54,945 bases of DNA from an uncultured SAR86 cluster bacterium (GTDB lineage Bacteria > Pseudomonadota > Gammaproteobacteria > Magnimaribacterales > D2472). The stretch is taken from the NCBI GenBank assembly GCA_902632555.1, contig CACPCZ010000009.1, forward strand, positions 1-54,945, read 5' to 3'. This document shows positions 2,846 to 45,738 of the stretch, in pieces. The translations under genes were made by a program, and so were the position numbers. Within the stretch, counting starts at the first letter, position 1, and each line of letters starts with the position of its first letter. The notes below the pieces were generated by a model, which was not told the origin of the DNA, did no database searches, and saw only the letters and a list, made by a program, of their open reading frames with translations.

Positions 2846-5411
2846 TGAAATTAGACAATCTTTTTTAGATTATTTTGAGTCTAAAAATCATAAAGTTGTA
2901 AATTCAAGTTCTCTGATTCCAAACAATGATGAAACATTATTATTTACAAATGCAGGGATGGTTCAATTCAAAGATGTTTTTTTAGGCACAGATAGTAGGA
3001 GCTATTTAAGAGCTGCAACTTCGCAAAGATGCATAAGAGCCGGAGGAAAGCATAACGATTTAGAAAATGTAGGCTATACATTAAGACATCACACATTTTT
3101 TGAAATGTTAGGAAATTTCAGTTTTGGTGATTATTTTAAAGAGGATGCAATTAAATTCGCATGGGAATTTTTAACCGATGTATTGAAATTAGACAAAGAA
3201 AAGCTTTGGATCACCATATATAAAGATGATGATGAAGCTGAAGAAATTTGGAAGGATGTAATTGGAATAGATCCTGGTCGCATTGCTAGACTTGGAGATG
3301 AAGATAATTTTTGGTCAATGGGTGATACAGGTCCTTGCGGTCCATGTTCGGAGATTTTTTTTGATCATGGGGATCATATTGAAGGAACACCACCGGGGCA
3401 TGATGGGGATGAGGGAGACAGGTTTGTTGAAATTTGGAATTTAGTTTTTATGCAGTTCAATAGGGATGAGTCAGGTAAAACCTCACCACTACCAAAACCT
3501 TCAGTTGATACGGGAATGGGGCTGGAGAGAATTGCTGCAGTAATGCAAGGGGTAAATTCAAACTACGAAACAGATCAATTTACAAATTTAATAACTGCTT
3601 CAGAAGAAATTTTAGGCAATAAAACAAGTACATCACATAAAGTAATTGCAGATCATATTAGATCGTCAGTTTTTTTGATTTTAGATGGAGTTTTGCCTGA
3701 AAAAGAAGGCAGGGGTTATGTTTTAAGACGAATAATGAGAAGGGGTATTCGACATGGTTATAAAATTGGTGCTCAAAAGCCTTTTCTTCATTTGTTAGTG
3801 GATGAGTTAGTTGATTTAATGGGATCTGCATATCCAGATCTAAAAAATAAGCAAAAAGAGATTATAAAAGTTATAAAAGCTGAGGAAGTGAAGTTTTTTG
3901 AGACATTAGAGAAAGGTATTTATATTCTGGATGAAGCTATTTCAGTTATGAAAAATAAAACAATTTCAGGTGATATAGTTTTTAAACTTCATGATACTTA
4001 TGGGTTCCCTTTTGATTTGACAGCTGATATTGCTAGAGAAAAAGGCTTAAACATCGACGAAGAGAGGTTTAATGAATGCATGAACTTGCAAAAACAAACT
4101 TCTAAAGCTTCGAGTAGTTTTGTGTCTTCGTTGCCAGCCGCATCAGGTGTCAGTGAAACAATATTTCTTGGGTACGAAAAATTAGAAGCCAGCTCAAAAA
4201 TTTTAGTTATCTGGAAGGATCTAGAAAGGAAAGATATAGCAAATACCGGTGACGAAATATTTATTGCTTGTGATCAAACACCTTTTTATGCAGAGGCTGG
4301 AGGCCAGATTGGTGATAGAGGAATATTTGCATCTAAGTCTGCTACTGGTAATATTTTAGATTGCAAGAAACAAGGAAAAGTATTTATTCATAAGGCAATT
4401 GTTAATAAAGGCAGTATTAAAAAGGGTGAAGTGATAGAAATGAGTGTAGAAAAAGAAAAAAGATCTGCGATAGCAATTCATCATTCATCAACTCACTTAG
4501 TTCATGCAGCTCTAAGAGAGGTTTTGGGTGATCATGTCCAACAAAAGGGATCATTGGTGGATGAGAATAAGCTGCGCTTTGATTTCTCTCATACTAAACC
4601 ACTTACTAAAGATGAAATTTCTAAGATTGAAGAAATTGTGAATAAAGAAGCTTTAAAAAACTTAGAAGTTGAAACAAAATTAATGAAACTTGAAGAAGCT
4701 TTGAATTCTGGAGCAATGGCATTATTTGGTGAAAAATATGATGATGATGTTAGGGTTTTAACAATGGGTGAAAACTCCTATTCAGTCGAGCTTTGTGGCG
4801 GCACGCATGTTGATAGAACAGGAGATGTGGGGCTATTTGTAATAACTAATCAATCTAGTGTTGCATCTGGTGTAAGACGAATAGAGGCAGTTGCTGGAAT
4901 GAAATCAATTGAGTATGTTAATAATGTAAGAGATACCTCGAACTCAATTCAAAACTTATTAAATGTTCCTCTTAAGGATCTTGAAGAAAAAGTTAAATCG
5001 CTTATTGACGAGAACAAAGAATTTAAAAAATCGGGAGGAAAAACTAGTCAACATTCAATCATTCATAGTGAAGTTCACAATATAGATGACTGGAAATTGA
5101 TCGTTGAACAAGTACAGGTTGAAAATTCAAAAGATCTCCGTCAAATTGTTGACTCTCATAAAAATACAAATGAAAGAGTTTGCGTAGTTGTTCTTTCAGC
5201 TGAAAAGAAGAAAGTTGCAATAGTCTCAGGAGTTACAAAAAATTTAGCTGAAATAATCTCAGCAAAAGATATTGTTTCTGATTTAGCAGAACAAATCGGT
5301 GGCAAAGGCGGCGGTAGATCAGACTTTGCTCAAGGTGCTGGAGAGACAGATAACATCCAAGAATTCGTGACATCTATTGTAAATTCAGTAAAATCCCTCG
5401 CAAAAAATTAA
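2835..5411 (+). CDS. alaS: Alanine-tRNA ligase
   Basis: Charges tRNA-Ala and hydrolyses Ser/Gly-tRNA-Ala. About 858 residues. The class II core begins MKTSEIRQSF and includes HHTFFEMLGNFSFGD near residues 85-99. The editing domain carries the metal-site motifs HHSSTHL and CGGTH, and the C-terminal DHHA1 domain has a Gly-rich GGKGGGRSD stretch. I use the ATG at 2835 rather than the in-frame TTG at 2826 because family members begin at this methionine. It overlaps the previous gene by 11 bp, and lysC follows 6 bp after its stop. The alaS-lysC order is typical of Pseudomonas-like gammaproteobacteria. Confidence 0.98.
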   Translation: MKTSEIRQSFLDYFESKNHKVVNSSSLIPNNDETLLFTNAGMVQFKDVFLGTDSRSYLRAATSQRCIRAGGKHNDLENVGYTLRHHTFFEMLGNFSFGDYFKEDAIKFAWEFLTDVLKLDKEKLWITIYKDDDEAEEIWKDVIGIDPGRIARLGDEDNFWSMGDTGPCGPCSEIFFDHGDHIEGTPPGHDGDEGDRFVEIWNLVFMQFNRDESGKTSPLPKPSVDTGMGLERIAAVMQGVNSNYETDQFTNLITASEEILGNKTSTSHKVIADHIRSSVFLILDGVLPEKEGRGYVLRRIMRRGIRHGYKIGAQKPFLHLLVDELVDLMGSAYPDLKNKQKEIIKVIKAEEVKFFETLEKGIYILDEAISVMKNKTISGDIVFKLHDTYGFPFDLTADIAREKGLNIDEERFNECMNLQKQTSKASSSFVSSLPAASGVSETIFLGYEKLEASSKILVIWKDLERKDIANTGDEIFIACDQTPFYAEAGGQIGDRGIFASKSATGNILDCKKQGKVFIHKAIVNKGSIKKGEVIEMSVEKEKRSAIAIHHSSTHLVHAALREVLGDHVQQKGSLVDENKLRFDFSHTKPLTKDEISKIEEIVNKEALKNLEVETKLMKLEEALNSGAMALFGEKYDDDVRVLTMGENSYSVELCGGTHVDRTGDVGLFVITNQSSVASGVRRIEAVAGMKSIEYVNNVRDTSNSIQNLLNVPLKDLEEKVKSLIDENKEFKKSGGKTSQHSIIHSEVHNIDDWKLIVEQVQVENSKDLRQIVDSHKNTNERVCVVVLSAEKKKVAIVSGVTKNLAEIISAKDIVSDLAEQIGGKGGGRSDFAQGAGETDNIQEFVTSIVNSVKSLAKN

Positions 5412-5417
5412 AATACA

Positions 5418-6632
5418 ATGTCAGAAATTATTGTTCAAAAATTTGGAGGTACTTCTGTCGGTTCTGTTGACAGAATAGATGCTGTTGCAAACATAATCGC
5501 AAAAGCTTCTACATCACATAGAGTAATTGTTGTTGTTTCTGCAATGGGAGGAGAGACAAATAAATTAATTAAGCTAGCAAATCATTTTGGATCAAATCCA
5601 GATAAAAGGGAATTTGATGCATTAGTTTCAACTGGTGAAACAGTAAGCTCTGCTTTATTAGCAATGGCTCTGCATTCAAAAGGAATTAAAGCCAAATCAT
5701 ATTCGGCATCTCAAATTTCAATGAGAACCACCGACTCTTTTTCAAAAGCAAAAATACTAGATGTGGATGCAGATAAAATATTGAAAGTAGTCGATGATAA
5801 TACAATTCCAATCATAACTGGTTTTCAAGGTATTACTGAAGGTGGAGACATTACTACACTGGGAAGAGGAGGATCTGATACCACTGCTGTAGCAATTGCA
5901 GCACAAGTTAATGCAAGTAGATGTGATATATATACAGATGTAGATGGAATTTTTACAACTGATCCTAGAGTAGTACCAAATGCAAAAAAATTAGATTCGA
6001 TTACAATGGAAGAAATGCTTGAACTTGCTGGCCAAGGTGCAAAAGTTGTTCAAACTAGAGCAGTAGAATTTGCGAATAAGTTTGATGTTCCAGTAAGAGT
6101 GCTATCAAGCTTTAAAGACGGAAATGGTACTTTAATTTCTTTAGGGGAAGAAAATATGGAAAATGCATTAGTATCTGGAATTGCTTTTCAAAAAGATCAA
6201 GTAAAATTCACTCTTCATGGTGTTGGCGATACTCCTGGTACCGCTTTTAAAATACTTGGACCAATTAGTGATGCTGATATTGAGGTTGATGTTATTGTTC
6301 AAAATGTAAGTGTTGATGGAAAAACTGATTTTACATTTACAGTTTCATCTGATGATCAATCCTCAGTTCAAAATATAATCGAAGAAATTAAAGAGGATGT
6401 AAATTTTAGAGAGCTTATAATCGATTCAAATATAGCAAAAGTATCTATTGTAGGAGCAGGCATGAGATCACAAGCTGGAGTAGCAAGCACTGCCTTCAAA
6501 TCACTCTCAGAGCATGATGTTAATATTCAAATCATTTGTACTTCTGAGATCAAAATTACTATGGTGATCGATAAAAGCTTAGTTGAAAAAGCTGTTCAGG
6601 TTCTTCACAATGAATTTAACTTGGATAAATAA
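5418..6632 (+). CDS. lysC: Aspartate kinase
   Basis: Phosphorylates aspartate, the first step toward lysine, threonine and methionine. 404 residues. The N-terminal kinase domain opens with VQKFGGTSVGS, contains the STGE motif near residue 74 and the GRGGSDT nucleotide site near 153-159. Two ACT regulatory domains follow from about residue 260 to the end, as expected for the feedback-inhibited monofunctional enzyme of about 400-410 aa. It lies directly downstream of alaS, and the next gene starts at the base after its stop codon, indicating one transcript. Which amino acid inhibits it cannot be read from sequence. Confidence 0.97.
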   Translation: MSEIIVQKFGGTSVGSVDRIDAVANIIAKASTSHRVIVVVSAMGGETNKLIKLANHFGSNPDKREFDALVSTGETVSSALLAMALHSKGIKAKSYSASQISMRTTDSFSKAKILDVDADKILKVVDDNTIPIITGFQGITEGGDITTLGRGGSDTTAVAIAAQVNASRCDIYTDVDGIFTTDPRVVPNAKKLDSITMEEMLELAGQGAKVVQTRAVEFANKFDVPVRVLSSFKDGNGTLISLGEENMENALVSGIAFQKDQVKFTLHGVGDTPGTAFKILGPISDADIEVDVIVQNVSVDGKTDFTFTVSSDDQSSVQNIIEEIKEDVNFRELIIDSNIAKVSIVGAGMRSQAGVASTAFKSLSEHDVNIQIICTSEIKITMVIDKSLVEKAVQVLHNEFNLDK

Positions 6633-7967
6633 ATGTTCGACCTCATCTTAAAAAACTGCAAAATCGTAAACGAAAATACTATATTTGAATCTGACATTGC
6701 AATAAAAAATTCAAGAATTGAAATAATAGCAAAAGATATTGAATCTAATTCAAAAGAGGTGATTGATATTCAAGGAAAGTATGTAATCCCTGGATTAATT
6801 GATGATCAAGTTCATTTTAGGGAACCAGGACTTACTCATAAGGGTGAAATTGCTACCGAATCAAAAGCTGGACTTGCTGGAGGCGTTACAAGTTATTTCG
6901 AAATGCCAAATGTTAATCCTACAACAACAACGAATGAGAATTTAACAAAAAAATTTGAATTAGCAAGTACAAGATCTCTTTCAAATTATTCTTTTCATCT
7001 GGGAGCAAGCAATACTAACATTGAAGAAATTAAGCGTGCTGATATCCACCAAGCTTCTGCACTAAAAGTTTTCATGGGAGCTTCAACCGGAGATATGCTT
7101 GTTGATGACTTAGATGCTCTAGATGATATCTTTAATTATTCCCCTCTAATAGTTGTTACGCATTGCGAGGACCAAAAAACTGTGGAAAAAAATGAAAAGC
7201 TATTTCAACAAAAATATGGAGAAAATGTCTCAGCTGAGCATCATCATTTAATTAGGGATGTTGATAGTTGCTTTCTTTCAAGTTCACTGGCTGTAGATTT
7301 GGCAAAAAAATATGATGCCGACTTGCATGTATTTCATTTAACAACTGAAAAGGAAATGGAATTGTTTACTGCTGGAGATATTGATGGGAAAAAAATTACA
7401 GCGGAGGTTTGTGTTCATCATATGTTTTTCAATGAGTCATATTATTCAAGACTTGGAAATCAAATTAAATGCAATCCTTCAATTAAATTTGAATCTGATA
7501 GATCAGCACTAATCAAAGCTTTACTTGAAAATAAAATTGATATCATTGCTACTGATCACGCTCCACACACATGGGATGAAAAAAATAAAGCATATACTGA
7601 AGCTCCAGCAGGATTGCCACTAGTGCAACATGGCATGCAAATTCTTATGGACTTTTATCATCAAAACATAATTAGTTTAGAAACTATTGTTGAAAAGACT
7701 AGCCATAATGTTGCTAGAAGGTTTCAAATTAAAGATAGGGGTTTTTTAAGAGAGGGTTACTTTGCCGACATAACAGTTTTGGATATTGAAAAACCTTACA
7801 CAGTTTCAAAAGAAAATATTTTATATAAGTGTGGTTGGTCACCTTTTGAAGGACATAATTTTAAGTCTTCAATTTTTATGACAATCGTGAATGGAAATAT
7901 TGCCTTTAGAGATGGAATGGTTACAGATAATTTACCTTTTGGAATGCAAATAGAATTCAATAGATAA
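6633..7967 (+). CDS. pyrC: Dihydroorotase, amidohydrolase superfamily
   Basis: Closes carbamoyl-aspartate to dihydroorotate in pyrimidine synthesis. 444 residues, the size of the type I dihydroorotase/allantoinase group, not the ~350-aa E. coli PyrC. Visible motifs are VIPGLID, then QVHFREPGLTHKGE, the probable carboxylated lysine Lys145 in ALKVFMGAS, and ATDHAPHTW with the catalytic Asp. The usual metal motif H-x-H reads Q59-x-H61 here; I recall the same Gln in other members of this subgroup, so it is probably a subfamily trait. The gene begins at the base after the lysC stop, in the position where csrA often lies. Allantoinase is the main alternative but less likely. Confidence 0.88.
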   Translation: MFDLILKNCKIVNENTIFESDIAIKNSRIEIIAKDIESNSKEVIDIQGKYVIPGLIDDQVHFREPGLTHKGEIATESKAGLAGGVTSYFEMPNVNPTTTTNENLTKKFELASTRSLSNYSFHLGASNTNIEEIKRADIHQASALKVFMGASTGDMLVDDLDALDDIFNYSPLIVVTHCEDQKTVEKNEKLFQQKYGENVSAEHHHLIRDVDSCFLSSSLAVDLAKKYDADLHVFHLTTEKEMELFTAGDIDGKKITAEVCVHHMFFNESYYSRLGNQIKCNPSIKFESDRSALIKALLENKIDIIATDHAPHTWDEKNKAYTEAPAGLPLVQHGMQILMDFYHQNIISLETIVEKTSHNVARRFQIKDRGFLREGYFADITVLDIEKPYTVSKENILYKCGWSPFEGHNFKSSIFMTIVNGNIAFRDGMVTDNLPFGMQIEFNR

Positions 7968-7994
7968 AATAGTCAATTTGGATTATCTAAGAGT

Positions 7995-8000
7995 TATAAT
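7995..8000 (+). promoter_or_regulatory. Candidate -10 box for tRNA-Ser
   Basis: A perfect TATAAT lies 18 bases before the first base of the tRNA and 27 bases after the dihydroorotase stop. The best -35 candidate upstream, AGTCAA at 7971-7976, is weak. It would give the tRNA its own promoter apart from the upstream operon. Confidence 0.5.
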
Positions 8001-8018
8001 CCCCATTTAAAAAATATA

Positions 8019-8108
8019 GGAGAGTTGGCTGAGTGGTCGAAAGCGCCTCCCTGCTAAGGAGGTAACTGGGCAACTGGTTCGAGGGTTCGAATCCCTCACT
8101 CTCCGCCA
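8019..8108 (+). tRNA. tRNA-Ser, anticodon GCU
   Basis: A 90-nt class II tRNA that reads AGC/AGU. The acceptor arm GGAGAGT pairs with ACTCTCC (8098-8104). Discriminator G and an encoded CCA end at 8108. The anticodon stem CCTCC/GGAGG encloses CTGCTAA, with anticodon GCT at 8053-8055. A long variable arm and a T arm with GGTTCGAATCC complete the cloverleaf. tRNA-Ser(GCU) near alaS is a conserved gammaproteobacterial arrangement (serV beside csrA in E. coli). Confidence 0.97.
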
Positions 8109-8128
8109 TTTTTATGATTTAATATATT

Positions 8129-8980
8129 ATGACAACTGAACATATAGTTAATTTTTTAGAAGATTTTTCAATTGAGGTAACTCCAAATGCCGCAAATAAA
8201 ATTGAGAAGTTTGAAGACTTCTTACCGATAGGCACTTTTATATATATTGCTCATATCGAAGGTACTCCAATAAAAGATACTGTAAGCACAGCAAAAAAAA
8301 TTACAGATCAAGGCTTCCGAGCAATGCCACATTTTCCAGCAAGAATAATCAAAGATAAAGTTATGTTGAGTGAATGGATATCAATGTATAAAAATGAGGC
8401 GGGTGTCGAAAATGCACTTTTAATAGCAGGCGGTGCAAATAAACCCTACGGAGATTATGATTCGTCAATTCAATTAATAGAATCTGAATTATTTGATCAG
8501 GCTGACTTTAAAAATTTACACATTGCCGGTCACCCAGAGGGCAACAAAGATATTGATCCTGATGGCACTACTTCAAATGTTGACGAAGCGTTGTCATGGA
8601 AAAATGAGTTTAGCAAAAGGACGAACGCATCAATGGCTATTACAACCCAATTTTGCTTCGACTCAAATTCCGTAATTGAATGGGCAAATAATATCAAGAA
8701 ATCTGGCATTGATATCCCTGTTCATATAGGTATTGCTGGACCAGCAAAGCTTCAAACGCTTTTAAGGTACTCAATTGAGTGTGGTGTAGGGGCATCGATA
8801 AAAATTTTGCAAAAGAGAGCTAAAGATATTACAAAACTTTTACTACCATACAAACCAACTCAAATAATCCAAGAACTTGCAAAACACAAAGCGGAAAATC
8901 CTGACTTTAATATTGAAAAGGTTCACTTTTATCCACTAGGTGGAATTAAGCAAGTAAGTCAGTTTATTAAAGAATATTAA
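8129..8980 (+). CDS. Methylenetetrahydrofolate reductase-like protein (divergent MetF family)
   Basis: A 283-residue TIM-barrel protein of the MTHFR family, FAD-dependent enzymes interconverting methylene-THF and methyl-THF. The catalytic Glu region SFEFFP of E. coli MetF reads SIEVTP here, keeping the Glu. The strand IAGHPEGN matches the MetF A-x-Y/H-P-E-x-H element, and ITTQFCFDS matches ITQFFFD. Similarity is otherwise low, so it may be a paralogue serving one-carbon release (for example demethylation of methylated compounds) rather than methionine synthesis. It follows tRNA-Ser by 20 bp and is separated by 105 bp from the next gene. Family level is fairly sure; direction and physiological role are unknown. 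Confidence 0.8.
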   Translation: MTTEHIVNFLEDFSIEVTPNAANKIEKFEDFLPIGTFIYIAHIEGTPIKDTVSTAKKITDQGFRAMPHFPARIIKDKVMLSEWISMYKNEAGVENALLIAGGANKPYGDYDSSIQLIESELFDQADFKNLHIAGHPEGNKDIDPDGTTSNVDEALSWKNEFSKRTNASMAITTQFCFDSNSVIEWANNIKKSGIDIPVHIGIAGPAKLQTLLRYSIECGVGASIKILQKRAKDITKLLLPYKPTQIIQELAKHKAENPDFNIEKVHFYPLGGIKQVSQFIKEY

Positions 8981-38996: not shown

Positions 38997-39367
38997 TGAA
39001 GAAACTCCTATTTTATAGCATATTCTTCTCTGCAATCCTTATGTCCGGTGTTGTCTATGAGTTCGATAATGAAACTGACGAGATAAGATTCAATAATCTA
39101 ATAAAAGAGATTAGATGCCCAAAGTGCACATCTGGATCCCTGTCAAGTTCAAATGCACCAATCTCTGAGGACTTAAAACTAAAGATTGTTGAAATGATAA
39201 AGCAAGGAAAATCAGATGCCGAAATTAAGGATTATGTTTCAGAACGTTTTGGTAAAGAATCGCTTTATGATCCAGAGCTTTCCCAAGAGACTTATTTGCT
39301 TTGGTTTGGGCCATTAATATTCATAATTGGCGCTTTTATAATATTCTTCTTTAGAAGAAAAACATAA
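38996..39367 (+). CDS. ccmH: Cytochrome c-type biogenesis protein CcmH (short form)
   Basis: About 123 residues, the redox half of CcmH. A signal peptide is followed by IRCPKC, the conserved C-x-x-C that handles the apocytochrome thiols, although the usual following Q-N-Q-S-I is altered to a Thr/Ser/Gly-rich stretch. YVSERFGKESLYDPE matches the family helix, and a C-terminal membrane segment plus a basic tail end it. E. coli has CcmH fused to a CcmI part; here they are split. Confidence 0.92.
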   Translation: MKKLLFYSIFFSAILMSGVVYEFDNETDEIRFNNLIKEIRCPKCTSGSLSSSNAPISEDLKLKIVEMIKQGKSDAEIKDYVSERFGKESLYDPELSQETYLLWFGPLIFIIGAFIIFFFRRKT

Positions 39368-40152
39368 TGGTAACTTTTATATTGCTAGCATTGGTTGCTT
39401 CGCTTCCAATCATTGCTTATTTATTAGCAAACCAGACATCTAGTAAAGGAATAATTTTAGGCATTACTGTGATTGTACTTTCCTTATGTTTAATTTTTTT
39501 TATAAGTAAATTTTCAATTCTTGGAACATTTGAAAAACAAACAATTAATAACAAGATTATTGATGAAATATATTTAGATAAAAAAATTTCTATTGAAAAT
39601 CTTGTTAATATTGAAAATACTCTCAAAGAGGACGAAATTAAGATTTGGCTAATAAGTCTTGTAAGTAAGTCTATTGAACTTAACAAATTAAATTCAGCTG
39701 AAAGTTTAGTTACTTTTTCTGAGAAGTTTTTTAACTCAAATGAAGAAAAATTAATTTTCTACAATATGTATACAACTCTAAGAGATGCAAAATTTCCAGC
39801 CTTTGCTGATGCTAACTTCTTTATTTCTGATGATTCTTTATATCCATGCAATTCTTTTAAAGGCGAAATTAAAATTTATATTATGAATGGACCAGAAATT
39901 CCCATTGGTGAACAAAAATTTGATAATTTTGATGCAATTTCAATTTCAAATGACAATAGCATTATTCCAGGTTTTGACTTGGCATCAGCATTTTTAAATA
40001 CTGAAACTGTTGAGTTGAATGTGAGTATAGAATGTGACAAAAAAGAAAGTAATTTTTATCTCAAAAATTCAATTGTTTTAGATCAAAACAAACCTTCTGT
40101 GACCTATAAAATTGGCTTAAATGAATGGTTTAAAAGGCCACAAGAGTTATAA
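39367..40152 (+). CDS. CcmI-position membrane protein (divergent)
   Basis: A 261-residue protein in the ccmI place, with its ATG overlapping the ccmH stop by one base. Residues 1-20 and 28-48 are two membrane segments, as in CcmI. A helical stretch follows (about 60-140) that could be tetratricopeptide-like, and a beta-rich C-terminal part from ~150. Known CcmI proteins end in a region that binds the apocytochrome C-terminus; the PEIPIGEQKFDNFD stretch and FKGEIKIYIMNGPE recall that domain weakly. I assign by position and topology, not strong sequence match. Confidence 0.6.
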   Translation: MVTFILLALVASLPIIAYLLANQTSSKGIILGITVIVLSLCLIFFISKFSILGTFEKQTINNKIIDEIYLDKKISIENLVNIENTLKEDEIKIWLISLVSKSIELNKLNSAESLVTFSEKFFNSNEEKLIFYNMYTTLRDAKFPAFADANFFISDDSLYPCNSFKGEIKIYIMNGPEIPIGEQKFDNFDAISISNDNSIIPGFDLASAFLNTETVELNVSIECDKKESNFYLKNSIVLDQNKPSVTYKIGLNEWFKRPQEL

Positions 40153-40178: not shown

Positions 40179-42377
40179 ATGCAATTAAAGCACATAAAAC
40201 TCTCAGGCTTTAAAAGTTTCGTTGATCCAACGAAAATATCTTTTCCAACAAATATGGTTGGTGTTGTTGGGCCAAATGGTTGTGGCAAATCTAACGTAAT
40301 TGATGCAATTAGATGGGTTCTCGGTGAGCTTTCAGCAAAGAATTTAAGAGGAGAATCAATGGTTGATGTCATTTTTAATGGCTCAGAAAAAAGAAAAGCA
40401 TCTGGACAATGCAGCATTGAACTATTATTTGATAATAGTAGTGCAAAAATTGGAGGAGAGTATGCCTCTTTTAATGAAGTTTCTATCAAAAGAGTTATGA
40501 CTCGTGATGCACAATCTAATTATTTTATTAATAATACAAAATGCAGAAGAAAAGATGTACAAGATATCTTTCTGGGTACAGGCTTAGGACCTAGCTCTTA
40601 TGCAATTATAGAGCAGGGTATGGTAAGCAAACTTGTCAGTGCAAAACCAGACGAGTTAAGGACCCATATTGAAGAGGCTGCTGGAGTTTCAAAGTACAGG
40701 GAGAGAAGACGAGAGACAGAGTCAAGAATTAAACGAACTAAAGAGAACCTATCAAGAGTTAAAGATATTAGAGATGAAATAGCTAGATTAATAAAAAGGC
40801 TTGAAAATCAAGCAAAGGCTGCTGAAAAATATAACACATTAAAAAAAGAAAAATCAAAAATTGAAATTGATATTGCAATTCTATTTTCCTTGGAAGCAAA
40901 AAATAACAGAGATGGTTTGCAAAAGAAACTAGATTCTTTAAATAGAGATCTAAAGATAAAGAATGCAGAGTCTGAGACAATTCAGTCTCAAATTGATCAA
41001 TATAGAACTGAAAACGAATCTGTTTTATCTGAGTATGAAAACGCACAAAAACACTTTTACTCTATTGGTGCTGAAATAGCAAAGCGAGAAGCTAATCTTC
41101 AAAATATTAATAAAACTGAAAATGAAACAAAATTTAAGCTTGAGACGGCCACTAAAAATCTTGAAAAGGCAAAAGAGTCTGAATTGAACTTTGATGAGCT
41201 TAGTCCCAGTGAAAAAGCTATGCATATGCTAGATGAAATAATTCTTACCCTAAAAAATTATGATTTTCAAAATGATAATGTATTAGACAAAGCTACAAAA
41301 TTAAAAACACTTCTAGCGGAAATTTTAAATATTGCCTCAGCACAATCAAAAACGTTGACCGAAGAATACTTATCAAGGAAAAATGATCTTATTGAACAAA
41401 TAGATGATGCCGAGAAATTAAAGAGCTCTATTCAAGAAGAAATGAAAACATTTGTAACCAAAAGCTCTGAAGCAGAAACAGTTTTAATTGATCTTAGACA
41501 AAAACAATCAAAATTTAATGATGATCTAAGAGAGCTTGAAAATAAGAAGTCTATTTCAGATCTGGACTCAAGAACATTATCTGAAAAGATCACAAACATA
41601 AGACTTGATCTCAAAACATATGAAATTAATCTTGAAAATTCTAACCAAAAAATAAAAAAAGCTGGTATTAAAATCGAAAATATAGATTTTAAAGATTATG
41701 AAGGACTATCTATTTCACAGCTTGAGGAAAATTTAACAGATGTTGATTCAAAAATTATTAGATTAGGAGCAATAAACCTAGCAGCACCTGATGAGATAGA
41801 AGAAGAGACAAAAAGAAAGGAAGAGCTTGATAAACAATATGATGATCTTACAGAGGCACTCGAAAAGCTAACCGGAGCTATAAAAAAGATCGATAATGAA
41901 ACAAAGACAATCTTTAAGGATAGTTTTGACGCAGTCAATATAAAGCTTAAAGAAGTATTTCCAAAGCTTTTTGGTGGCGGTATTGCAGAGCTTACACTCA
42001 CCGATGATGATCCGCTTCATGCCGGCGTAATTTTAATGGCAAGACCGCCAGGCAAAAAAAATTCATCTATATCTCAATTGTCTGGGGGTGAAAAGGCTCT
42101 AACAGCGCTTGCTTTAGTCTTTGCTATTTTTGATCTTAATCCAGCTCCATTCTGTCTGCTAGATGAGGTTGACGCACCTCTTGATGATCTGAACACACTT
42201 AGATTTATCAACATGGTAGAAGAAATGTCCAAGTCAGTGCAGTTTATTTTTATAACTCATAATAAAGTTTCTATGGAGAGAAGTGATTATCTTATGGGAG
42301 TTACAATGCAAGAAGCAGGAGTCTCAAGAATGGTTTCAGTCGATGTAAATCAAGCATTGGAATTAGCTGAATCATAA
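40179..42377 (+). CDS. smc: Chromosome segregation SMC protein, short form without a recognisable hinge
   Basis: Condensin ATPase organising the chromosome. Both head halves are complete: Walker A GPNGCGKS at 31-38, the Q-loop region IIEQGMVSKL near 143-152, signature LSGGEKALTALAL at 634-646 and Walker B CLLDEVDAPLDD at 659-670. RLGAINLAAPDEI at 528-540 also matches the family. Coiled-coil arms run at about 165-335 and 395-560. Typical SMC proteins have ~1,150-1,190 residues with ~300-residue arms and a ~150-residue hinge; this one has 732, and its middle (~336-395) has no Gly-rich hinge pattern. The frame is open throughout, so no frameshift is evident. zipA begins at the base after its stop, in the usual smc-zipA-ligA order. 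Confidence 0.9.
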   Translation: MQLKHIKLSGFKSFVDPTKISFPTNMVGVVGPNGCGKSNVIDAIRWVLGELSAKNLRGESMVDVIFNGSEKRKASGQCSIELLFDNSSAKIGGEYASFNEVSIKRVMTRDAQSNYFINNTKCRRKDVQDIFLGTGLGPSSYAIIEQGMVSKLVSAKPDELRTHIEEAAGVSKYRERRRETESRIKRTKENLSRVKDIRDEIARLIKRLENQAKAAEKYNTLKKEKSKIEIDIAILFSLEAKNNRDGLQKKLDSLNRDLKIKNAESETIQSQIDQYRTENESVLSEYENAQKHFYSIGAEIAKREANLQNINKTENETKFKLETATKNLEKAKESELNFDELSPSEKAMHMLDEIILTLKNYDFQNDNVLDKATKLKTLLAEILNIASAQSKTLTEEYLSRKNDLIEQIDDAEKLKSSIQEEMKTFVTKSSEAETVLIDLRQKQSKFNDDLRELENKKSISDLDSRTLSEKITNIRLDLKTYEINLENSNQKIKKAGIKIENIDFKDYEGLSISQLEENLTDVDSKIIRLGAINLAAPDEIEEETKRKEELDKQYDDLTEALEKLTGAIKKIDNETKTIFKDSFDAVNIKLKEVFPKLFGGGIAELTLTDDDPLHAGVILMARPPGKKNSSISQLSGGEKALTALALVFAIFDLNPAPFCLLDEVDAPLDDLNTLRFINMVEEMSKSVQFIFITHNKVSMERSDYLMGVTMQEAGVSRMVSVDVNQALELAES

Positions 42378-42992
42378 ATGAGCATAAATTCTGAAATATA
42401 TTTAATTGGTCTTGCAGTTCTAAGTTTTCTAATAATCGTTTTTTTATTTATAAGAAAAATTGCAAATAATGGCAAATTAAAAGTTAAGATTGAGGAGTTA
42501 CCAGAGAGCTTCCAGGAAAATTCTGAAGAAGAGGACAATAATAACCTGCCATCTGATATAGAAGATAAAACTGATAATGAGGATCAAGAATTGGCGATAC
42601 TCAATCTTATTTCCATTGATAGATCTTTTTTTGATATTGAACAAATTTTTGGTTTTTTATCTAACTATGGAGCGATATTAAAAAATAAATATTTTTCTTT
42701 TATGGATGAAGATGGTAATGAAATCTTTAGAATTGCAAATGCATTAAATCCAGGTACATTTGAAAAAGATACAAAAACATTTGCAATTGTTATTGCATCA
42801 AATTTAACCAATACAACTGATCCGATAAAATCTGTAAAGCAAATGATTGACTTTTCAGTAAATTTTTCAGAAAAATTTTATGCCAATCTTTGTGATGAAG
42901 AAAGAACTCCAATCACAAAACAAATGATATCTCACATGGAAACTAGAGCTCAAGATATCGCAAGAATAAAACAACTTGGCGATAAAAATTAG
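42378..42992 (+). CDS. zipA: Cell division protein ZipA
   Basis: Anchors FtsZ to the membrane. 204 residues: an N-terminal membrane segment at about 6-26, an acidic linker rich in Glu, Asp and Asn (about 40-70, short compared with E. coli), and the C-terminal FtsZ-binding domain from about 70, with LAILNLISIDRSFFDIEQIFGFL at its start (LNL is written here as part of a longer helix) and TFAIVIASNL followed by KSVKQMIDFSVNFSEKF. Sequence similarity is modest, but topology, domain order and position between smc and ligA make the call secure. Confidence 0.88.
   Translation: MSINSEIYLIGLAVLSFLIIVFLFIRKIANNGKLKVKIEELPESFQENSEEEDNNNLPSDIEDKTDNEDQELAILNLISIDRSFFDIEQIFGFLSNYGAILKNKYFSFMDEDGNEIFRIANALNPGTFEKDTKTFAIVIASNLTNTTDPIKSVKQMIDFSVNFSEKFYANLCDEERTPITKQMISHMETRAQDIARIKQLGDKN

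Positions 42993-45738
<2,746 letters not shown>

Follow-up and report, generated by a model that had tools for sequence, protein, structure and literature searches.

The window analysed here is a stretch of 54,945 nucleotides from an uncultured SAR86 cluster bacterium (contig CACPCZ010000009.1), whose genome (G000) is available as a draft assembly of 35 contigs that is 83% complete. The forward strand of the window, on which all features described below lie, carries smc at positions 40179–42377, a single open frame with an ATG start and a product of 732 amino acids. Immediately 3' of it is zipA (42378–42992; Pfam ZipA_C, PF04354, E=1.9e-11), followed by ligA for an NAD-dependent DNA ligase (42999–45155; PF01653, E=5.1e-92). 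An earlier note, made from the letters of this DNA, had placed the gene in a smc-zipA-ligA locus, and the Pfam matches confirm both neighbors; we take this order to be typical of Gammaproteobacteria. The ZipA protein is short (204 aa) and diverged, reaching 32 bits against an NCBIfam cut-off of 119.65 though it is recognized by Pfam. For an open reading frame of 261 aa immediately 5' of smc (39367–40152) Pfam gives nothing at E≤1, and the genes preceding it resemble, by eye, cytochrome c maturation genes.

The 732-aa protein exceeds the cut-off of the SMC_prok_B equivalog model TIGR02168 (811 bits against 567.35), and Pfam SMC_N covers both of its ends. The TIGR02168 profile matches in two pieces of the same frame, profile positions 1–386 at nt 40182–41339 and 857–1181 at nt 41382–42347, which are separated by just 14 residues (41340–41381). 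About 470 profile positions (387–856), comprising the hinge and the distal arms, are thus absent while the heads and proximal arms are kept, which bears out the earlier reading of the gene as a short SMC. The genome search (E≤0.001) gave a single SMC match in G000, and a paralogue working alongside a normal SMC is thereby ruled out. The split ATPase head consists of an N-terminal half (aa 1–165; 40179–40673; from the AlphaFold2 model and conservation) and a C-terminal half (aa 561–732; 41859–42374; from the model and Pfam SMC_N). The former holds the Walker A motif GPNGCGKSN (aa 31–39; 40269–40295), invariant across 19 aligned short SMCs, and the latter the ABC signature LSGGEKAL (aa 634–641; 42078–42101) and the Walker B/D-loop FCLLDEVDAPLDD (aa 658–670; 42150–42188), both placed by the alignment. 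Most positions of the signature and of Walker B (LLDEVDAPLDD) are invariant in the same 19 sequences, so that the alignment, together with the AlphaFold2 model, upholds the full set of head motifs.

The region between the head halves was modeled by AlphaFold2 as a single chain on a 50-sequence alignment, four members of which were short. The resulting model has a mean pLDDT of 82, a pTM of 0.52 and a complete head, and its best fold matches in the PDB are SMC heads, several of them with ScpA. Modeled helices span residues 171–338, 343–358 (short) and, after a loop, 369–494 (126 residues), and then, after a joint-like break, 536–598; no strands are found between the arms in this model. The N-arm is thus one single helix of 168 residues (aa 171–338; 40689–41192), and the C-arm (aa 396–560; 41364–41858) contains a broken, joint-like segment. 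The tip that joins the arms at the place of the hinge (aa 336–395; 41184–41363; from the model, the alignment and HHalign) is helical and of low confidence, with a pLDDT of about 49–63 at aa 331–380. The stretch of about 336–395 that had been noted between the arms fits the modeled helix ends (338, with the next long helix starting from 369), and the monomer prediction that had been suggested gives a head, arms and a low-confidence helical tip. Arms of about 165–170 residues each had also been proposed; this holds for the N-arm and fails on the C-side, where the 126-residue helix is followed by the break.

Conservation in SAR86 and the search for a hinge

In the related genomes an SMC match was found in 53 of 59, not counting the own genome. 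The six relatives with no SMC match (G001, G002, G003, G009, G015, and G029) are 71–90% complete, and three of the 53 carry partial proteins (G005, G019, and G055). The 50 intact SMCs are 730–827 aa long and, together with the window protein and a separate SAR86 record (L113), make up the 52 SAR86 proteins extracted, from which the truncated L094 of G055 is excluded. These proteins fall into discrete length classes, 727–736 aa in families f1 and f4, 809–810 aa in f3, and 821–827 aa in f2. L113 came, like the L149 and L142 described below, from a scan of contigs that is a sample, keeping the best 80 of 509 relatives. It belongs to isolate AG-349-N21, presumably a single-cell genome as AG- names indicate, and its SMC is 727 aa long, 65% identical, and placed inside f1 in the tree. 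Median dN/dS among 20 same-length sequences is 0.022 for the heads, 0.066 for the arms and 0.106 for the tip (190 pairs, of which 168, 123, and 112 were usable, respectively), values that can be read only as well below 1 because dS is near saturation. The SAR86 Smc is under strong purifying selection. A deletion introduced during assembly, or a frameshifted or decaying gene, might be suspected in a draft at this level of completeness, but it is refuted by the relatives and we give it practically no chance: the same structure is present in 53 of 59 relatives and in the independent L113, the gene is one open frame, and dN/dS is well below 1. The comparison within the clade that had been proposed as a check shows the short form in all 50 relatives with an intact SMC.

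The hinge is regarded as one of the defining domains of SMC proteins, serving as dimerization site, as DNA-binding site and, in some models, as entry gate. The Pfam hinge model PF06470 has no match in the 732-aa protein at E≤1, and none of the 60 genomes (the own genome and the 59 relatives) contains a match anywhere, which also speaks against a hidden hinge supplied in trans. In a gammaproteobacterial reference of 140 genomes (G000 included), by comparison, PF06470 matches 123 at E≤10, and the score is above the cut-off in 109. PF06470 is itself imperfect: of the 24 members of the set A4, in which 20 SMCs are full-length, it recognizes 16 at E≤0.01, the model misses L258, L160, and L177, and it is weak on many hinges from outside Gammaproteobacteria. 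A phylum survey with the same model gave matches at E≤10 in 201 of 299 genomes, 120 of them over the cut-off, in a sample that includes genomes lacking any Smc, and it carries no weight in the conclusions here; its follow-up found an SMC match in 14 of 80 genomes, where at most seven candidates were scored per genome and misses thus carry little weight.

HHalign was also run against gammaproteobacterial and alphaproteobacterial hinge profiles, and the hinge probability was at most 1.1% for all 86 short SMCs. Among the controls, 46 of 47 held-out gammaproteobacterial sequences and 12 of 12 alphaproteobacterial ones (leave-one-out and short-armed) reached at least 90%, 58 of 59 overall, some of them being close kin of profile rows and thus easy to detect. 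The single control missed is L176 (Litoricola sp.), showing that a strongly eroded hinge can escape HHalign. The center of the window protein is also poor in glycine and proline, with 5 Gly and a single Pro among its 342 residues, whereas three full-length SMCs have 39–53 Gly in 772–779 central residues. A degenerate hinge within the tip is rejected on the negative HHalign result for all 86 proteins and on the few Gly and Pro, with the reservation just given for strongly eroded hinges. Since Pfam finds no hinge in 60 genomes, HHalign finds none in 86 proteins while 58 of 59 controls are positive, and the modeled region between the heads consists entirely of helices, the evidence supports a hinge that is truly absent rather than merely unrecognized. 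The earlier note had seen no Gly-rich hinge pattern between the arms and had named a significant PF06470 hit at about residues 330–400 as what would overturn its reading; none is seen in the protein or its relatives. The protein is thus a hinge-less variant of Smc and not a canonical member.

A zinc hook of the Rad50 kind is likewise ruled out as a replacement, as a CxxC between the heads occurs in none of the 86 short SMCs, including the tip of the window protein. In family f1 the tip carries a conserved motif, F..L(S/T)P.EKA, and among 26 f1 sequences 12 of its 60 positions are invariant. The mean major-residue frequency of the tip is 0.774, compared with 0.770–0.824 in the distal arms and 0.93–0.97 in the heads, so conservation at the tip does not exceed that of the distal arms. 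In SAR86 f1, f2, and f3, in MarineAlpha6 and in G183, the window of highest hydropathy is found no more than 36 residues from the center, whereas it lies off center in SAR86 f4, in all six SAR11 groups and in G093. The idea that all lineages have their most hydrophobic stretch at the tip was rejected accordingly, as it holds in some lineages only.

Recurrence and the number of losses

The short hinge-less Smc is no peculiarity of a single genome, a point that the earlier note had missed; it is common to the sampled SAR86 order and recurs elsewhere. In Pelagibacterales (SAR11; G488–G545), a short SMC match is present in 57 of 58 genomes, including that of L149 (Pelagibacteraceae AH-326-I05), whose SMC has 798 aa (5001–7394). 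SAR11 proteins fall into classes of 798, 809–814, 857, 863–864, and 880–881 aa; full-length frames are 799–891 aa, and shorter ones are, going by their coordinates, fragments or cuts at contig ends. HHalign finds no hinge in the 30 SAR11 proteins tested, and the group profiles of four SAR11 groups and of MarineAlpha6 give a hinge probability of at most 0.2%. The AlphaFold2 model of L149 has a similar layout with arms of about 225 residues joined by a plain hairpin (395–409), again of low confidence. MarineAlpha6 is represented by L142 (MarineAlpha6_Bin4, 5001–7451), L231, and L232, with a hinge-less SMC of 817 aa that stands apart from SAR11 in the tree. In the class of the L142 genome, 92 of 124 sampled genomes have an SMC match and most of the frames listed are about 1,145–1,200 aa long; the short frames among those listed are G487 and G567 (820 aa), G489 (809), G574 (869), G656 (963), and G591 (1,104). 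The last three (L258, L259, and L260; 865–1,099 aa as proteins) have kept the hinge (HHalign 98.7–100%), and from such short alphaproteobacterial SMCs it may be that shortening of the arms came before loss of the hinge.

Among Gammaproteobacteria, two genomes of 1.1 Mb encode hinge-less SMCs too, of about 940 aa in G093 and about 944 aa in G183, and the 1,000-aa SMC of G062 in the same sample keeps its hinge. Hinge-less genomes measure 0.8–1.8 Mb as assembled. Small genome size is not sufficient for hinge loss, because some small gammaproteobacterial genomes, such as G087 (1.4 Mb), have kept the hinge. At G448:C1:691848–696356 the SMC open frame is unusually long (1,531 aa).

We speak of losses on the premise that the hinge is general in SMC proteins. 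In the head-domain tree the window protein nests among gammaproteobacterial SMCs. The head-only tree of 61 rows, some of which are long and unsure in placement, requires five changes of the hinge label; its starred branches force four, and bootstrap trees give four to five. A single origin for all hinge-less proteins is rejected, SAR86 and SAR11 as one clade having a p-AU of 1.3e-59, while the constraints joining SAR86 with G183 (p 0.104) and SAR11 with MarineAlpha6 (p 0.213) are not rejected. Because the joint SAR86 and SAR11 clade fails while joins within a class do not, at least two losses within Pseudomonadota are strongly supported; our best estimate is four or five, to which the loss described in the literature for Actinobacteria adds one more. 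In SAR86, loss of the hinge and distal half-arms probably dates back to the ancestor of the order. L176 (Litoricola, 1,133 aa, 5001–8399) stands as sister to SAR86 in the tree (support 93/90), and the center of this protein is one which, read from its letters, looks like a shrunken and diverged hinge to which both Pfam and HHalign are blind, and which may represent an intermediate toward the SAR86 state.

Condensin partners, the proposed ring and known systems

The search for scpA and scpB that had been suggested detects each of the two proteins in 51 of 59 relatives, and in 22 of the 23 near-complete ones, so that the kleisin ScpA and the KITE protein ScpB are present at the level of the clade. 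Both are absent from the same eight relatives (G006, G010, G025, G026, G028, G033, G044, and G059), and neither is in the contigs of the 83%-complete own assembly. Two of the eight, G044 (one contig, 93% complete) and G059, have a hinge-less SMC with no ScpA or ScpB at E≤0.001. In other lineages, 29 of the 30 genomes queried contain ScpA, namely the hinge-bearing G062 and G574 and 27 of 28 hinge-less ones, the miss being G528 and one of the 28 (G519) being classed as hinge-less from its 864-aa frame alone. A MukB model is not among the matches listed for the window protein. The suggestion of a minimal condensin in a streamlined genome agrees with a conserved short condensin subunit, a small genome, and the presence of both partners in most relatives, though not in the incomplete own assembly. 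A switch from condensin work to that of a repair ATPase like RecN or Rad50 has in its favor weak matches to Rad50 models; the best of these reaches 49.3 bits against a cut-off of 700, SMC_prok_B is by far the best model and above its curated cut-off, SMC heads lead the fold comparison (several of them with ScpA), the gene sits in the smc-zipA-ligA locus, the relatives retain ScpA and ScpB, and a CxxC hook is missing in all 86 proteins. We regard this reading as very improbable.

The protein is most likely part of a Smc-ScpAB ring closed by the short helical tip as a minimal dimerization element, a view we hold with moderate confidence. It would be the Smc of an ordinary Smc-ScpAB condensin that lost its globular hinge and distal half-arms in the SAR86 ancestor and would have retained its neck, its ATP-driven heads and the arm portions next to them. 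The arms would meet in the short helical tip (about aa 336–395), and two Smc monomers would pair tip to tip by helix packing with no zinc. Together with ScpA, the tip, arms and heads would then still form a closed though smaller ring, its arms some 25 nm long (168 residues at the textbook value of 0.15 nm per residue), which would load on DNA and move along it by the usual head cycle. Sequence, hinge absence, conservation, ScpA and ScpB in relatives, and recurrence across lineages are direct results, from which we infer the loss in the SAR86 ancestor, ring closure, tip dimerization and condensin activity. Pairing at the tip is supported by the central hydropathy peak in some lineages and by the f1 tip motif; against it speak the low confidence of the tip in single-chain models, its conservation no higher than that of the distal arms, and a hydropathy peak that is not universal, as do the missing ScpA and ScpB in G000 and G044.

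The conservation and hydropathy of the tip would also suit the main rival, in which the tip stays unpaired and hinge-less monomers are joined at the head end only, where the heads engage in an ATP-dependent manner and ScpA-ScpB forms a bridge; the shape would then be an open V or clamp. ScpA and ScpB kept in most relatives, and ScpA in the other hinge-less lineages, are also in its favor. On the other hand, arms of about 168 residues in SAR86 and 225 in SAR11 L149 have been kept in proteins of 727–944 aa, the SAR86 arms are under purifying selection that is hard to explain with no function at the far end, and the Bacillus subtilis swap described below retained a dimerization domain, the zinc hook, and so does not prove that Smc manages without one. 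We consider this clamp a possible but distinctly less probable arrangement than the ring closed at the tip. A separate unrecognized protein that bridges or caps the tips instead of the hinge appears improbable; the genome-wide search covered the Pfam hinge model only, which leaves room for such a protein, but PF06470 is absent from the 60 genomes and no candidate was noticed in the window between 36000 and 47000.

SAR11 and SAR86 are abundant in the sea. Hinge-less SMCs are already known from marine Actinobacteria, where a cluster lacking CxxC is abundant in sequencing data and is speculated to have a different function or DNA-binding mode; that study also summarizes the roles of the hinge in SMC proteins, and its main text mentions neither SAR86 nor ScpA (PMC12153180). 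Among the papers listed by a literature search, with subscription papers and preprints outside its scope, none reports a hinge-less SMC in SAR86 or SAR11 in its title or the opening of its abstract. SAR86, SAR11, the retained kleisin, and convergence are thus apparently new here. Also known is a B. subtilis Smc in which the Rad50 zinc hook replaces the hinge and which supports normal growth on rich medium (PMC5344682), a result that lends plausibility to a hinge-less SAR86 condensin. According to the same study, shortened B. subtilis Smc worked at arm lengths of 253–267 aa and of at least 321 aa with a gap between them, and natural prokaryotic Smc arms cluster at lengths of 238, 341, and 515, with 163 and 423 as possible minor modes (PMC5344682). 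The modeled SAR86 arm of 168 residues is near the possible mode of 163. Hook and hinge are also reported to be interchangeable in yeast Rad50 (PMC6969161). Taken together, we think it rather likely that several streamlined lineages of the ocean (SAR86, SAR11, MarineAlpha6 and, by the earlier report, Actinobacteria) independently dropped the hinge and kept the rest of the condensin, that short arms ending in a short helical tip suffice in its place and have evolved repeatedly, and that a bacterial condensin can work without the hinge toroid. The hinge may thus be dispensable for such a condensin, and its repeated natural loss with the kleisin kept offers natural experiments on the hinge-dependent functions of SMC proteins and on the required arm length. 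It also touches on the actinobacterial question, in that hinge-less SMCs can retain condensin partners.

The SAR86 Smc resembles full-length bacterial Smc (TIGR02168) in its heads, signature motifs, proximal arms and the ScpA and ScpB of its relatives, and differs from full-length gammaproteobacterial SMC (about 1,130–1,200 aa) in having 732 aa, no hinge and no distal arms. With Rad50/SbcC it shares two heads, antiparallel arms and the absence of the SMC hinge, but the zinc-hook CxxC is found in none of the 86 short SMCs. The actinobacterial cluster, as described in PMC12153180, is likewise marine and combines an SMC head and coiled coil with neither hinge nor CxxC; it belongs to another phylum, and it is by description that it is set against the window protein, which nests in Gammaproteobacteria. 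The engineered B. subtilis mini-Smc and Smc(zinc hook) share with the SAR86 protein a condensin that tolerates shortened arms and replacement of the hinge; the engineered protein dimerizes via the Rad50 hook (PMC5344682), whereas the SAR86 Smc is natural, has no zinc hook and has an arm of about 168 aa.
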